Assembly (NCBI GenBank): GCA_025093555.1
Contig: JAIWNF010000008.1
Coordinates: forward strand, 310,001-374,000
Length of the DNA: 64,000 nt
Direction: 5' to 3'
Source of the DNA: Circinella umbellata
Taxonomy: Eukaryota > Mucoromycota > Mucoromycetes > Mucorales > Lichtheimiaceae
Shown: positions 15,633-64,000 of the stretch, piece after piece
Numbering within the stretch: the stretch's first letter is position 1
How the letters are laid out: the number at the start of each line of letters is the position of its first letter
Notes under the pieces: generated by a model
What the model was told of the DNA's origin: nothing
What the model saw: only the letters and a program-made list of their open reading frames with translations
Database searches by the model: none
Position numbers and translations under genes: made by a program

Positions 15633-17989
15633 TACGTTTGAATTTTTATTATAGGATTATATTTTTTCTGAAATAGCAAACGTCTATTATCTTTTGTTAA
15701 CATCCTTTTTTTTGCTATTTTGACTAGTAGAAGGGGTATACGGGACCGATTATATACATAGCCATATGAGAGCTTCAAAATACATAGTAGGTGTAACTAA
15801 TATTGGGTAGTTCTGCCTATCTGTGCAATTTTTTTTCTCGCGGATTCCCAATTACAATGCACAGCGCCGACAGCCATAGCCAATCCTCTTGCACGATTTC
15901 ACTAAGAAACTATATGATTCATTTAATTTTCTTTATATAATAATAACTTTTTATATTTGATATTCGTTTTGATTAAATTTAGACTATTGAAAGCATTCTA
16001 ATAATATAAAGTATATCAATTTTTACTGAACATTAGCACCAACTTGTTCGAATATTATCCGCAAAAAGTGATAATACTCTTAGATTATTTGATTCAGATA
16101 GCTTTATTGGTGCAATTTTTTTTTGTGTGGCATTAAAGTGAGAAGTGACTTCTATGGTTACACGGATTTCCCATTACTATACGTACCCCATTATCTGTGG
16201 AATTTTTTTCGGATATATAACTCAATATTTTCCATGTCTCATACAGGTGTAATGTTCAGACCCAAAATTATATAAAGGGATAAGTTGATGGTATCTATCA
16301 ATTCATTTCATTTTCATAAGAAAACTGTTGATATATATATTTGGGTGATGTAAAAAGTATTAAGAGCGAAATATAAAAATGGATAGTAGGGAAACAAAGG
16401 AAATTAAATAGATAGATAGTAAAATGAAACATTTATAATATAATGGAAATAAAAGGAATACCAAAAAATTAAGTGATGATAAATATAGGGTAAAAATGAA
16501 AAGAGTCTTTAACTATTGTTATTTTTGAGTACATAATTTTGCTCCAAAGGCGATTTTCCTCATTCGTAGTTGTGGTGGTGTATATACTCCAAAAGCCTTT
16601 TTGTCTTTTATATGTTCTATCTGAGTCATCGTTAAGTCAATCATGTTTCCATTGCTTCAATCATCTTTTATATCTTTACGCATTAACCATTGGCCTATTC
16701 CGAGAGTGAGACTTTGCTGGATACATGAGATAGGTACTGTGAAGAAAAAAAACTGTGACACTTACAAGATCCCCAACAACCTCCGATAAAAAAAGACTCA
16801 AAGACCAGCATCTTAATATTCATTAATTTCAGTAGTCTCCATGTGCATTGGTCATGTTTGATGGATGATTAATCACTTGCAACATATATATATATTAAGC
16901 ATAGTCTTGCCCGATTGGAAAAGTATGTTTTGTGGTGTTCACGACACTCAGTTGGCACAGATTTCTGTCTTAGGTTAAGATTGTCAAAGCGGACTAAGGA
17001 TCTTTCATTTTGATGTTCAATAAGTAGTGTTGCAATTGTATAAAAACAGAGTTCGTTATTAGTCCTACTATCTACGTACTTTTGAATGTAATTTTATAAC
17101 GTACAGCACTGAACTTCATCTATTATGGAAAGTTTGTAGCAGATTTATTTAATTCAGGAGCATCAAATATAGTACGTAACACTAATTAACAATAATAGAG
17201 AATGTCATATAATAATATTTTCTTCTTAGGCAGCATGACTGTTGGTACAATAGTACTTCGAACTACATTTGGCCGGCCGTGGATTTAGTACATGATTGGC
17301 ATAAAAGTGGTCAGTAAATTTGGTAGAAACTTCTATAGTTGTGTCGCTAGTAACTATATCAATACCTATCAAACAGTAGATTCTTGATCGTTGGCAGAAA
17401 GAACAAGTTGTAAAACAAACGGATATTGGAAAAGCTCTGCTATAATTCTATATATAGTGAGACATTTGGTAGTCAATATTGTCTTACGAATTGACGAGTA
17501 TCGTTAATTCGTCGATCAGAAAATTCGAGAACATTTCAAACGAAGATATGGTGTTGATAAATAATTATAGGTATATTGTAGTCGGCTTTCAATGCTGTTT
17601 TCTATTTATTCTATTACAGAAATTAATCATTTTTAAAGTCACCTATGGATATCTCTTAGCCTCTAATCCAACTAATACGTGATGTTTTGATCACATGTCC
17701 ATGTCCATTAACAGTACTTTAAATAAGAGCGATAGGATTATATTTATGCTGTTGCTTCATGTACGTATCTCATATCTACAGTGATTCAACTGTTTTCTGA
17801 CGTAGTATGAAAAATGCTTTATTCTAATCACAGTAGTATATATATTGCTATATTTAGATCATGTTATTATTGTTGATAAGTTAAAGTGAACAATTATCGA
17901 AATGTCGAATGATCAGACGTTTTAATTCTGCCAAATTTATCGTTAATAAGATAACTGTGCTGGTAAACAATTAACGAGCCAGCGAGATA
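15633..17989. other. Spacer of the inverted duplication, no gene recognised
   Basis: About 2.36 kb between the two arms. Short ORFs occur but none has family motifs or consistent splice sites. A few GC-richer patches (near 15860-15890 and GGCCGGCC near 17270) break the AT-rich background. I see no repeats shared with the rest of the window. Confidence 0.4.
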
Positions 17990-58654: not shown

Positions 58655-59452
58655 TTACACAAGATATTTAAGTTCGTTAAATGTACTCTTCAGTATTTTG
58701 TAGTTTTTATATCTTGAAAAATAACCTTCAGCTAAGCCTTTGTCATAGCAAACTTTCCAATTCATTTGTTTATGTGTTTTCAAGTATTCTTCCTTGAACT
58801 CTCTAGCATATTTCATGTCATCGAGTTGTGGTTCAGATGGCATTTGTGGTAAGATGCCAATGTGTGTACTTCGTTTTGGGGGCTGAACATTAGGTGGCAA
58901 ATCCAATGGTAATGGCATCATGTCGGAGTCGTCTAGAACTGGCCACTGGTACTTGTGTAAGCAAGTCTCTGCATATAGTACACCTGCACTTGCCAAACTT
59001 TTCATTTTTTTTATGCCTACATTGCCTTCATCAGACACCTCCAGTATCCTCTTGAATTGCTTTTTTGTTTCAGTGGCAACGTCAATTAATCGCTCCACCG
59101 TCGAATTGTGGTCCTGTATTTGATGGTCCAGTGCTTCCTTTGCAATTTGGTATAATAATATAACAGTAGGATCCTTCTTATACTCTAATCCAAACAATGA
59201 ACATTTTTGTTCAATCAGTACATATCCAACTGCTGCCAGAGGAGGAAGAGGCTTGCTATTAATAATGGTATCATTATCACTGTTGCTGTTGTTGTTGTTG
59301 CTGTTGTTGTTGATATTGATGTTACTGGTTTTACTGCTATTGCTGCTGTCTTTATCATTATTGTCATCATTATTGCTATCTTTGTTGTTATAATTATCAT
59401 TAAAATCTGCGATAGTTTTAGGGGTTATAATTAAGTGCTCTCTGGCCCAAAA
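58655..59452 (-). CDS. Unrecognised protein, Asn-rich N-terminal part
   Basis: A continuous minus-strand frame from just after a stop (near 59453) to TAA at 58655. It reads YFWAREHLIITPKTIADFN, a long Asn/Ser/Asp-rich tract (59400-59270), then LAAVGYVLIEQKCSLFGLEY, a helical charged segment (EALDHQIQDHNSTVERLIDV), a Pro-rich stretch and KQMNWKVCYDKGLAEGYFSR. No ATG is near the 5' end, so an upstream exon or a lost start is likely. It lies just inside a mariner-like terminus (58625-58641) and beside a minisatellite, so it may belong to a mobile element. No family recognised. Confidence 0.4.
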   Translation of the reverse strand, partial: FWAREHLIITPKTIADFNDNYNNKDSNNDDNNDKDSSNSSKTSNININNNSNNNNSNSDNDTIINSKPLPPLAAVGYVLIEQKCSLFGLEYKKDPTVILLYQIAKEALDHQIQDHNSTVERLIDVATETKKQFKRILEVSDEGNVGIKKMKSLASAGVLYAETCLHKYQWPVLDDSDMMPLPLDLPPNVQPPKRSTHIGILPQMPSEPQLDDMKYAREFKEEYLKTHKQMNWKVCYDKGLAEGYFSRYKNYKILKSTFNELKYLV

Positions 59453-59588
59453 GTATCATGGAAGTAGCTTTAAGTATGAAACTTTAGGGCTATCATAAAA
59501 CATATTGGAAATTTCTACCCTCACATTCTTAATACAAATTGTAGGGTGCACTAAATTTTTGGGTAGTAAACCTTCCTAATTTGGATTT

Positions 59589-59893
59589 TTGGGTACTTCT
59601 GCCACTGAAAATTTGGGTACTTCTGCCACTGAAAATTTGGGTACTTCGCCACTGAAGGAGCCCAAAACTACCCAAAACTACAGAAAACTACAGAAAACTA
59701 CACAAAACTACCAAAAATTACTCAAAAACTACACAAAAACTATACAAAAACTGCTCAAAACTACTCAAAAACTACTCAAAAACTACTCAAAAACTACTCA
59801 AAAACTACTCAAAAACTACTCAAAACTATACAAAAACTACTCAAAACTATACAAAACTATACAAAAACTACTCAAAACTACTCAAAACTACCT
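59589..59893. repeat. Minisatellite, two successive repeat types
   Basis: First about two and a half units of GGGTACTTCTGCCACTGAAA (24-base period, 59589-59655), then about twenty units of AAAACTAC(T/A)C-type 10-12-base repeats to 59893. In the plus frame the second block translates to repeated KLLKNYTK-like units, a property of the repeat and not evidence for a gene. Confidence 0.75.
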
Positions 59894-61308
59894 GAAGGAA
59901 GGTGTCTTTTTTTTCAGATTTTGGTTACTTTTGAATACTACGATCGATCTCGGTCAACTTGATAGTACCCCATACTCTAGTCAACATTATTAGTTACAAG
60001 TTTTATATACGTATTATGTTAAAATGTGATAAAAAAAACGATAGCGAAAATAAGAGTGAAGCTATAATGACCAAAAGAACTTAAATTGACTTCCTCCATT
60101 AAATAATTTCTCGAAATATTTTATGACTATGTAATGTTCTACTAGAATGAATAGAACGAATTGAAAGAAATACCATCAAATATTATTATTATATATATGT
60201 ATGTTTTTTATTTTGCTACTATATGGAACTAGTGATGACTAGCTTTTTTTTATTAGGTTCATTATCCTGTTTAAACAATCAGACCCTTGTTTCATTTTTT
60301 TCTTTGATATTCTCTTAGTTAAGTGCCACCAATAATGTATCGATTACAATATACGTAGTAACTAATTATATCAACACTTATAATTTACTTTCAGTTACAG
60401 AATTGCTAGCCCATTTGTATCTAGATGAATAATTATATTTCATTGTATCAATCTAGTTCGCAAGAATTGGATACTGAAGTATATAAATAGTCAATAAGCG
60501 TAATCAATCAACACCACTTTGTCCTTTTCATTAAGAAACCTATAACAAATTTTGCAATATTTATTACCATATCCTATATATATTTACCTATATTATTTTA
60601 TTTATCTTTTACAACATTGACATTACGTACATATAGTTAAATCTGTACATAAAGGGAAAAAATTACAATAAAAACTTAGAGTTATTGTATTACTCACAAG
60701 TAAATCAAATATCGAAATAATAGAAAAAGTAAACACTTCTTTGTATTTTCTATATGAACGTATAATCATCTTTGTAAAAGTTGTTATAGTTGAGATACTT
60801 ATAATTATAAGCGTTAATTTAAACAAGATAAGAAAAAATCGAGAACAGAATAGCTCGGATCATATCAATTTAATAAGGGATAAAGAAAGTTATGTCAAAT
60901 ACGTAACTTATTTAACAAAGAGAAGAATAAATAGAAGGGCGGTTTTTATAACTAGTAAATTCGACCGATCAAATAGTCAGGAAAGGGAATGTATTTAAAT
61001 AAAATGAAGAAAAAGTGAACTAACTGTTATATTGCAGAGAAAGAAAGAAGCTATTCTACGTATTCTAAATAATTGACTATCTGTTTCCTTGGATGTAAAC
61101 TTGACTACGTATTATTCATTGTAAAAAAAACTTCTGGTACTGCTTTATCTAAATTTATACGTAAAAGAAATGTGATAATGATAACGATAATATTAAAAAG
61201 TATTTATAATACTTAAAGAGAAAAAAAATTAAGATAAAAAAATATAATAGAAAGAGGAAGAGAAAAGAGAAAAGAGGAGAAAAACCCAGAAAGAGGGATA
61301 ATACTACG
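59894..61308. other. AT-rich intergenic, nothing recognised
   Basis: Short ORFs only. A purine-rich tract at about 61215-61300 lies immediately downstream (3') of the MULE gene on its strand. No repeat partner was found. Confidence 0.35.
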
Positions 61309-64000
61309 TTATTTTTCTTGAAGCTCCTGATCAAGTGTCAATTGACGATATATGACTAATCCTGTATATTTAATCTTGCCATCAATCCGTTTTACTTTCT
61401 TAGGAGAAGATTTCATGTTGTCGAATTCGTACACATCTCCATTAGGAATTGTGCACATGGCTTTAAAGTGAAAACCAGTCGATCTAGTAGCTAATACACG
61501 TCCACAGAGCTGATATTCGGCTTTTTCAATTTTAATTTTCAGTGGGTAATAAGTTATGCTTCTTGATAGCTCCCCATGTTTCTCTCGTCATTCTACACCA
61601 TGCCCCTGGGATCTGTCTACCACAATAATAAATTTAGCGTACTCAACAATCTGGCGTTGCATAAGTAGTGAATCATCAAGTGAAACTTTGCAGTCCATAA
61701 TGCTTTCCTCCAACAGTCCACCCAAATTTACTAATCGCCAATCGCCTGAATCTTCTTCAACAAAATTTTCATCGTTCAAATAAAACATGGCTCGTTTTGT
61801 TCTGATCTTGTTTGATTTTTGAGTATCTTCTGTTATCCATGCTTTTAATTCATTTTTTGTAGGAGCTGAGATTTTATGGACTTCAGCTTTAGTGTGAAAC
61901 TGAAAGTGTCCAAGAAATGAATTGATACAGCGAGGGTCAAGAATACATTCACAGACATCTATTGGGTCGCCAAGGATCCTCTCTCTCTTAATCCGTATTT
62001 TCCTTTATTATCCCATATAAACTCCCGTGCTGACAATATACCACTTGTAAAGTCATGCTTCTGTACAGCTTTCCAAAGGTTAGCAAAAAGCTGAGCTCTT
62101 GTGTCATCGTCGATTCTGGGAGGCTCAGGAATATAGGGCATAACTGATCTTGATATAATATTGAAGATACGATCAATAAAACAAGCGTTTTCTCTATTTG
62201 GAACAATATTACGTGGATAATCAACCTCAAGCTGATCATTAACAGATCTACATAATAATGGGTCAGTAAAAATTATTAAACAGATGTAGTGCCTTCTTTT
62301 AATTTACATACATTATTTTTGCTTGCTTTTTGTCTCGATACTCTTGTTTCTTTTCCTTTTGAAATTGATCACGGACCTCAGACTGTCTCATTGCACGGGC
62401 TTCACGTGCATCAATAATCGTAGTCGTGTCTTCTTTATCGGGGCTGTTTTCATGTTGATGATTTTCTACTGTATCTATACGTATTTCCAAATAAATATTT
62501 GTATTATGAATTTTAATAATGGTAAACAAATAACTATTTAAACACTTAATGACGTACTTCCTAAATTTTTTCTCAATCTTTTTTTTGGTAGACAACTTTC
62601 ATCATTGTTTGATTTTGGGGTTGTTTTAGTAGAAAGCTTTCTTTTAGGCAACAGCAGCTTCAAGGTATCTGGAGCACGTCCATCATTGACAAATTTTTTC
62701 TTAGGTTTACGGTGGCTATTATTATACATAGTGTTTTAGCAAAGCGATTAATGAAACGAACTTGGATAACTGTAATAGTATAACTGTATTAGTAAAACTT
62801 ACGTTGGTGACGCTTTTTTATAATTAACATTCCTGCCTGAAAGAACGCGTTGGATATTAAATGTTCTTCAGTACGCAAATAGTTAAACAGTTGGGGGAGT
62901 GTGGTGAGGATTGGCTTGTCTTTTTGTATAAGACGATATATGTTACGATGAAAAGCTTCTACACCATTTGTTGTTTTGGTTGAATTCCAAAGAAGTTGGT
63001 CTCGCATTAATGACTTAGATCGGAATATCATGCTACTGATTTCTGGCTTCAGACACCATGATACCTCTTTGATACTTGGAAAATCTTTCAATAGTCCTTC
63101 AACAACGGCATCAAAAATTCCTGGAAAATTTGCTTCATACATTGTTTTAGTATACTCTAGGAAAGAATTAACTTGATCTGTAGAAATCAATTGAGCATTT
63201 TTCGACATTCTTTCAACGGAATTTTTCCAATGATAGTAGCATCCTTTAAGATATACCTCTGGTTTTATTCTTGAAAAAGGAAATGATGATGTAAAAGCTT
63301 GAAAAAGCCCAGCTCTCTGAGCTTGTGAGAAGTCCATCATGATACCACACATACACGGATCTCCGTCTTCATTCGTGGGTATTTTTAATTCTTTAAACAT
63401 AGCAATGAAGTATGCATTGAAATGCATTGTAGTCAAACCACCAATGACAGCTTGGAAAACAGGTACATATTTTTCCAATTCTTCCATAAAGATGACAGAA
63501 TTACACAAGTAGTAGTCATCGTTGAAGCAAGCATATGTGACGTCTGTGATGATTGGATGATCGTGGAAATTTGCATGATGAACAATGATGGGAGATCCAA
63601 ATGGTATGCAAAATGTTTTTGGATTAATATCCATTGGTGATTTTAAATATTCGGGAAACTCAGTGTTAAGCTTATCAATTGGATCTTTAAGTGATTCAAT
63701 GTGAGCAACCCCATTAACAGTAAATCCATATGTTGCAAGGACATTGCGTCTGTGGTACCCTATCTTTCCTAAGTGCTGAAAGTCTTTGTCAATGCCACGT
63801 ACAGGCTGCGGTGGATTCAATGGTCTATCAATGCTAGTTCCGTGAAGAAGTCCCATTGGTTTCTCTGAGGGACATTCGAGTACTCTTTGAGTAAACTTCA
63901 GAATAGACTCTTTATTTTTATGTACTGCTTCATATTTTCCATGCGTGTGTTTCCCTTTATGTTCTAAAAAACCGATGTTGTCTATGAACTTAAAATTGAC
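61309..64000 (-). pseudogene. Mutator-like (MULE) transposase with C-terminal USP-like protease domain, 5' end beyond window
   Basis: Enters from the right edge. Exon 64000 to about 62807 is MULE-like: Asp in IITDVTYACFNDDYYL (63542-63544), Asp in GIMMDFSQAQRAGL (63332-63334) and Glu in NGVEAFHRNIY (62957-62959), with GCYYHWKNSVER between. The same strand continues with a Lys-rich linker (HRKPKKKFVNDGRAPDTLKL), introns near 62575-62489 and 62293-62233, then a region with ubiquitin-specific-protease hallmarks. These are Cys in NRENACFIDRIFNII (62181-62183), a DPIDVCECIL box, FIIVVDRSQ, YQLCGRVLATRSTGFHFKAM with His at 61468-61470, and DVYEFDN. It stops at TAA 61309. Lesions: a frame change in the GA run at 61979-61988 and an in-frame TGA at 61588-61590. 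The join between transposase and linker is not resolved in frame. Confidence 0.6.

Follow-up and report, generated by a model that had tools for sequence, protein, structure and literature searches.

A Mutator-like transposon of the fungus Circinella umbellata with a putative C19-like cysteine protease behind its transposase

Proteases of the Ulp1, OTU and VTD classes occur in several unrelated classes of transposons, and the reason for their presence is under discussion (PMC2836005, PMC9741609); a role in repair (PMC2836005) and protection from degradation (PMC9741609) have both been proposed for such domains. The Mutator elements of plants, hydra and lancelet that carry Ulp1 (PMC2836005) unite a Mutator-type transposon and a protease of ubiquitin-like modifiers in one element, as the element described here probably does; their protease belongs to C48, whereas ours is C19-like, with its boxes in the order Cys, His, Asp. 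Ginger1 elements, too, have a transposase with a C-terminal deconjugating protease that is either OTU or Ulp1, but this transposase is Gypsy-integrase-like and C19 does not occur in the elements listed in that source (PMC2836005). The ubiquitin-specific proteases (USPs) form the largest deubiquitinase family in humans (PMC8983731).

The locus reported here lies in a window of 64,000 nucleotides (the whole stretch of DNA that was analysed), placed at C189:310001-374000 in a Mucorales genome that matches Circinella umbellata (Lichtheimiaceae) and of which 50.8 Mb in 210 contigs were searched. It is probably a copy, now decayed, of a cut-and-paste Mutator-like DNA transposon of this fungus, with a single gene for a DDE transposase that is followed by a charged linker and, at the C-terminus, by a cysteine protease of the C19 (USP) superfamily of peptidases. 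A preliminary description had drawn the feature from 61309 to 64000; the feature is present there, but these borders are too narrow, the mobile unit extending from 59,544 to 497 bases past the window end (Table 1).

Table 1. Features of the element, of its predicted gene and of OTU-like frames in sister elements; positions are those of the window unless a locus is named.
Feature	Position	Strand	Remark
Mutator-like element	59544..64000, last 497 bp beyond window	-	~4,954 bp; GGGTGC imperfect terminal inverted repeats
9-bp target-site duplication (caaattgta on +)	59535..59543	.	partner C189:374498-374506, just past the other end, outside the window
Exon 1 (window part), DDE transposase core	62803..64000	-	frame broken near 62,861
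Predicted intron 1, GTAAGT...TAG	62716..62802	-	splice dinucleotides common to C120
Predicted exon 2, Lys-rich linker with NDGRAPD motif	62558..62715	-	motif recognisable in sister elements
Predicted intron 2, GTACGT...TAG	62475..62557	-	splice dinucleotides common to C120
Predicted exon 3, charged linker	62312..62474	-	
Predicted intron 3, GTATGT...TAG	62248..62311	-	splice dinucleotides common to C120; agrees with P0007
Predicted exon 4, C19 (USP)-like cysteine protease domain	61309..62247	-	one frame break near 61,974 and one in-frame TGA
Predicted catalytic Cys codon	62181..62183	-	
Predicted catalytic His codon	61468..61470	-	
Predicted catalytic Asp codon, in VYEFDN	61420..61422	-	16 residues after His
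OTU-like protease frame downstream of sister transposase, in place of C19-like domain	L038 126-806	-	
OTU-like protease frame downstream of sister transposase, in place of C19-like domain	L015 3-1166	-	
OTU-like protease frame downstream of sister transposase, in place of C19-like domain	L020 3304-3966	+	

Comparison of the copies by blastn gives a 3' border common to the window copy, C120, C97 and C182 and a 5' border common to the window copy, C120 and C182, and direct duplications stand at the element borders of the window copy (9 bp), of C120 (10 bp) and of the C182 copy (9 bp), the last of which is interrupted by an insertion. Shared borders, GGGTGC ends and direct duplications therefore place the transposase and the C-terminal domain inside one mobile unit. 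The window copy and C120 agree in 4,614 of 4,733 aligned bases (97.5% identity), and no gene was recognised in the ~1.8 kb 3' of the element's gene. A 97% palindrome of ~970 bp abuts the transposase-side end of the element beyond the window (L039 5498-6466, corresponding to C189:374498-375466), and an inverted near-copy (89%) flanks the element on both sides (window 59001-59399 and L039 7466-7859); together they suggest a larger inverted arrangement around the insertion. Window positions 58658-59455 (-) hold a 266-codon open frame, Asn/Ser-rich and with a sub-threshold match to DUF2540, of which a diverged second copy lies beyond the window.

At C120, four exons are joined in phase by three predicted introns with canonical ends, and the spliced frame of 2,799 nt, or 933 codons with the stop (932 open), contains no internal stop. 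All six splice dinucleotides of this model are kept in the window copy, and the sequence QAKIISVNDQ in a public protein of C. umbellata (P0007) is the one expected from the predicted third splice. The damage to the window copy consists of two coding frame breaks, near 62,861 and near 61,974, and an in-frame TGA at 61,588-61,590. The TGA had already been noticed in the preliminary description together with a shift at a GA run; the break near 61,974 aligns a few bases from that run, and the break near 62,861 was not listed there. The same description had supposed that intact relatives may exist, and relatives with open frames, such as C120, were indeed found: L070 (C133) has the transposase, an acidic linker and the C19 domain in one 909-codon frame, and at L059 (C190) both halves are included in a 798-codon part of an 856-codon frame. 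Its view of a transposase joined to a protease on the same strand through a Lys-rich linker is borne out by the frame of L070 and by the in-phase predicted introns of C120. The NDGRAPD motif, which directly follows the transposase, can also be recognised, with no more than three changed residues, in sister subfamilies and in proteins of Mucor and Phascolomyces.

The transposase frame (62,792-64,000, minus strand) presents D153, D223, C-x2-H at 254-257 and E348, the catalytic residues and C254-x2-H257 being assigned by eye and box coordinates being counted by hand from the frames. T152-T155 are invariant in the transposase alignment A6, and the spacing between the two D residues is 70, against 71 in the PF10551-positive L071. 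Target duplications of Mutator elements range from 8 to 11 bp; the elements studied here have duplications of 9, 10 and 9 bp, terminal inverted repeats and a DDE core with C-x2-H between the second D and the E. We use the name Mutator-like because no window-type locus matches the Pfam models MULE (PF10551) or Transposase_mut (PF00872); one of nine relatives matches PF00872 below its cut-off, and IS256 appears far below its own. The MULE-type D...D...E core of the preliminary description lacks a match to a Pfam MULE model; motifs, target duplication and weak fold evidence point to a Mutator-like transposase. Comparison of the window transposase family with the PF10551-type MULE (L071) by hmmsearch and hhalign gave nothing above shuffles, and one common transposase lineage is therefore not claimed. 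No relative of the window transposase was found in phages.

For the C-terminal domain, a chance open reading frame was rejected in view of eight further genome matches to the middle part of the window domain and of homology to sister domains, since hhalign aligns the window-type domain with five of them at a probability of 98.1 (E 1.1e-13, 251 columns). Searched with the open C120 domain, the genome returned its own subfamily and weak matches behind other transposases (C156, C190 and C147 at E 7e-5 to 1e-4, others weaker). In the Pfam UCH check proposed in the preliminary description, sister domains homologous to the window domain exceed the cut-off of 23.9 bits at six element loci (C13, C146, C169, C158, C167 and C133, with 24.3 to 32.5 bits), whereas no Pfam family reaches its cut-off with the window-type domain by itself. 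A lack of any C19 match, which that description had named as speaking against its reading, was not observed. At C101 and C143 the UCH match is below cut-off. In direct Pfam scans, UCH reached 28.3 bits (E 1.6e-6) in L068, 24.8 bits in the L070 domain and 17.7 bits, below cut-off, in L059; no UCH match was present in L067, L066 or L071, UCH was not reported for the whole 909-residue L070, and four of the ten members of alignment A7 match it at E 1. Sequence profile searches of the PDB with sister C19 domains gave no USP at E 10, the best match being the unrelated SRP receptor beta (E 0.0057); the USP7 sequence scored marginally against the sister profiles (rank 3 and rank 1 against 500 shuffles), USPL1 gave no score beyond the shuffled range, and AlphaFold2 modelled the window C-terminal piece at pLDDT 31. 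Because of these results, we consider that the domain is best called C19-like.

Protein database searches returned nothing at E 1 among 3,333 candidates for the C19 part of L070 and two Circinella proteins at E 10 for the L041 domain, and no relative of the C19 profile was found in viral contigs. A Circinella minor protein (P0006), annotated with 260 residues and a start after the Cys box, contains the same C19-like domain (61% identity). An assignment to C48/ULP1 was dropped: no domain scanned has a Pfam C48 match at E 1 or 10, and the catalytic-residue order is wrong, that of C48 being different from the one found here. The preliminary description used the name Kaonashi for ULP1-bearing plant MULEs.

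On the minus strand, the Cys box NACFIDRIFNII (62,154-62,189), the D-x-x-E-like box DPIDVCECIL (61,939-61,968), the His box STGFHFKAM (61,456-61,482) and the acidic block follow one another in USP order, all of them located where they had first been reported. Alignments of window-type and sister domains give the box order Cys, D-x-x-E-like, His, Asp, which is the order of peptidase C19. In alignment A7, His and Asp are kept in all ten members and the Cys box in all eight whose frame reaches it, L063 and L064 starting after it; few columns are near-invariant across subfamilies, and those of the triad are among them. The spacing from His to Asp is 16 in the window subfamily and up to 19 in sisters. 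The oxyanion Asn of USPs stands five residues before the Cys, a position that is not conserved across the subfamilies of A7. The zinc-binding CxxC finger pairs, which are absent in some USPs, are not present in the window subfamily, and several sisters have one CxxC and further Cys residues.

How widely are such proteases associated with transposases in this genome? The search yielded 153 transposase loci (merged from 106 and 83 matches, 14 of the 83 below the Pfam cut-off), 43 C19-like loci (merged from 41 matches of the L068-domain search and 12 of the 24 rows of the C120-domain search) and 98 OTU-like loci (merged from 106 matches, many of them short and broken), counts from which Pfam UCH genome matches and matches to the C19 domain of the PF10551-type MULE were left out. 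A transposase stands at most 4 kb upstream on the same strand at 33 of 43 C19-like and 46 of 98 OTU-like loci, and the control, on the wrong side or the wrong strand, gave 3 of 43 and 4 of 98. Among the best candidates scored, 33 of the 153 transposase loci have C19 only, 46 OTU only, 74 neither and none both, versus ~10 expected with both under independence (33 x 46 / 153), a figure that is not a probability because copies of one family are not independent. Ten C19-like loci have no transposase upstream. Of these, C97 is located at a contig end, insertions separate two C124 pieces and one C182 piece from the transposase, the C1 locus (L067) has a transposase tail within its own frame, and for C155, C176, C2, C22 and C35 no cause was found. 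Seven C19-like loci stand behind PF10551-type MULEs; at L071 the C19-like domain and the MULE are in separate open frames. The OTU-like frames have a D-G-x-C box and homology to OTU structures of the PDB (A5 profile of three frames: OTUD5 E 5.1e-7, VCPIP1 9.3e-5, OTUD1 0.0025). The Pfam OTU match of L038 is below cut-off, and PF02338 matched the genome in two places, both away from the OTU-like element loci. Elsewhere in the window, positions 16971-17438 (-) hold a decayed fragment, 43% similar to the C19 domain of the PF10551-type MULE and one of several dispersed degenerate copies.

The transposase tree, built from 21 rows of the 153 loci, places OTU carriers and C19 carriers in interleaved clades, with support of 0.94 to 1.00 at the relevant nodes and 0.75 for one C19 grouping. 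The label changes between C19 and OTU number two, against a shuffled mean of 7.2 and a minimum of 4; on this tree, the protease module passes down within clades, with at least two replacements. In eight usable pairs, dN/dS ranges from 0.10 to 0.66, the C19 and transposase parts behaving alike; dS is close to saturation in one of these pairs, decay following loss of function contributes to the values of the window pairs, and the C97 row (7 codons, misaligned) and the two most divergent pairs, which gave no dS value, were left out. At somewhat under even chances, we propose as a wider rule for Mutator-like transposons of this fungal lineage that the transposase gene has exactly one deconjugating protease at its C-terminal end, of either the C19-like fold or the unrelated OTU-like fold. 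One fold would have taken the place of the other at least twice in a single transposase lineage, and PF10551-type MULEs, too, are followed by the one or the other; transposition of this class would then have a core need, independent of fold, for deubiquitination (or deSUMOylation) encoded in cis.

Other explanations of the locus have to be weighed against a single gene with a working protease. The two halves could be neighbouring, separately transcribed genes, a possibility that the preliminary description had itself held against its reading, and the window halves do lie in different frames with stops between them; the single 909-codon frame of L070 and the three in-phase predicted introns of C120 nevertheless make such an arrangement very improbable. 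Plant MULEs are known to capture pieces of host genes (PMC6431247), and the protease might be a host gene fragment of this Pack-MULE type, captured by chance and without function for the element. We give this hardly any weight, since at least six divergent transposase subfamilies (five tree clades and the PF10551 type of L071) carry the domain downstream, dN/dS is below 1, and the L068 domain, used as a query against the genome, brought up mainly loci linked to elements.

The nature of the activity leaves more room for doubt. The window subfamily is strongly diverged (19% identity to L068) and its finger cysteines are missing, as might be expected of a catalytically dead or non-enzymatic USP-like domain that merely binds ubiquitin-like proteins or tethers the transposase; this seems improbable to us in view of a triad that is near-invariant across subfamilies. 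That the domain resembles USPL1 (peptidase C98, of USP fold) in being a SUMO isopeptidase is unlikely, if less remote; the element would then deconjugate SUMO and converge with the ULP1-bearing plant MULEs. The resemblances are of several kinds: an Asp three residues after the Cys of the Cys box, as in USPL1 CWLD; a His box with H-F and without the H-x-G of USP7; an hhalign alignment, at low probability (~3.5), of USPL1 CNNCNS and YQITSVIQ...HF with the sister motifs; and in the window subfamily a His-Asp spacing equal to that of USPL1 (456 to 472, PMC8983731). Against them stand the score of USPL1, which lies inside the shuffled range (rank 7 and 8), whereas the Pfam match is UCH; Pfam C98 was not among the matches of the domains scanned. 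The SUMO preference of USPL1 goes with missing blocking loops (PMC8983731); the Tyr-to-His length counted by hand is 15 here, nearer to USP7 (16) than to USPL1 (13), which makes it probable that the second blocking loop has been retained. A C19-like protease of the USP superfamily is the reading that we prefer.

What could a transposon gain from such a C19-like protease? We hypothesize that the protease enters the nucleus together with the transposase and there strips ubiquitin or a ubiquitin-like modifier off the transposase, or off host proteins at excision and insertion sites, such as repair and chromatin factors; deconjugation might then stabilise the transposase or steer gap repair. Sister elements have an OTU-like protease in the same place, and no element with both was observed, which accords with a need for deconjugation as such, whichever fold provides it. 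Judged from sequence, this suggests that the elements may depend on interfering with the cell's protein-tagging system. Related elements that differ in which of two unrelated protease folds they have at one and the same position, all within a single genome, offer themselves for comparison; this suggests that the shared activity matters and lets the modifier and its target be tested. It would also add the USP class to the proteases of Mutator-like elements.

Deubiquitinase domains in transposons, with one class sometimes replacing another, are also described for Helitrons and Helentrons with VTD and/or OTU (PMC9741609); these are rolling-circle elements, some have both deubiquitinases, and the activity of VTD was studied biochemically in that work. 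USPL1 (PMC8983731), a remote enzyme of USP fold, has Cys and His boxes and a His-Asp spacing similar to those of the element domain, but it is a host gene without a transposase and has no significant sequence match to the element domain. A literature search on the species C. umbellata gave no match; no Mutator-type transposase with a C19 protease was recognised among the literature matches listed, and an earlier description may exist. Among these matches, the closest prior record is the Trichomonas vaginalis protein XP_001314237.1, in which Transposase_11 is combined with Peptidase C19 (PMC2836005). It is alike in joining a transposase and a C19 domain and differs in its transposase family, being a single record for which the passage in that source describes no element. 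Transposons with ULP1, OTU or VTD proteases are already known, and a Mutator-like element with a C19-like protease may be new among them.
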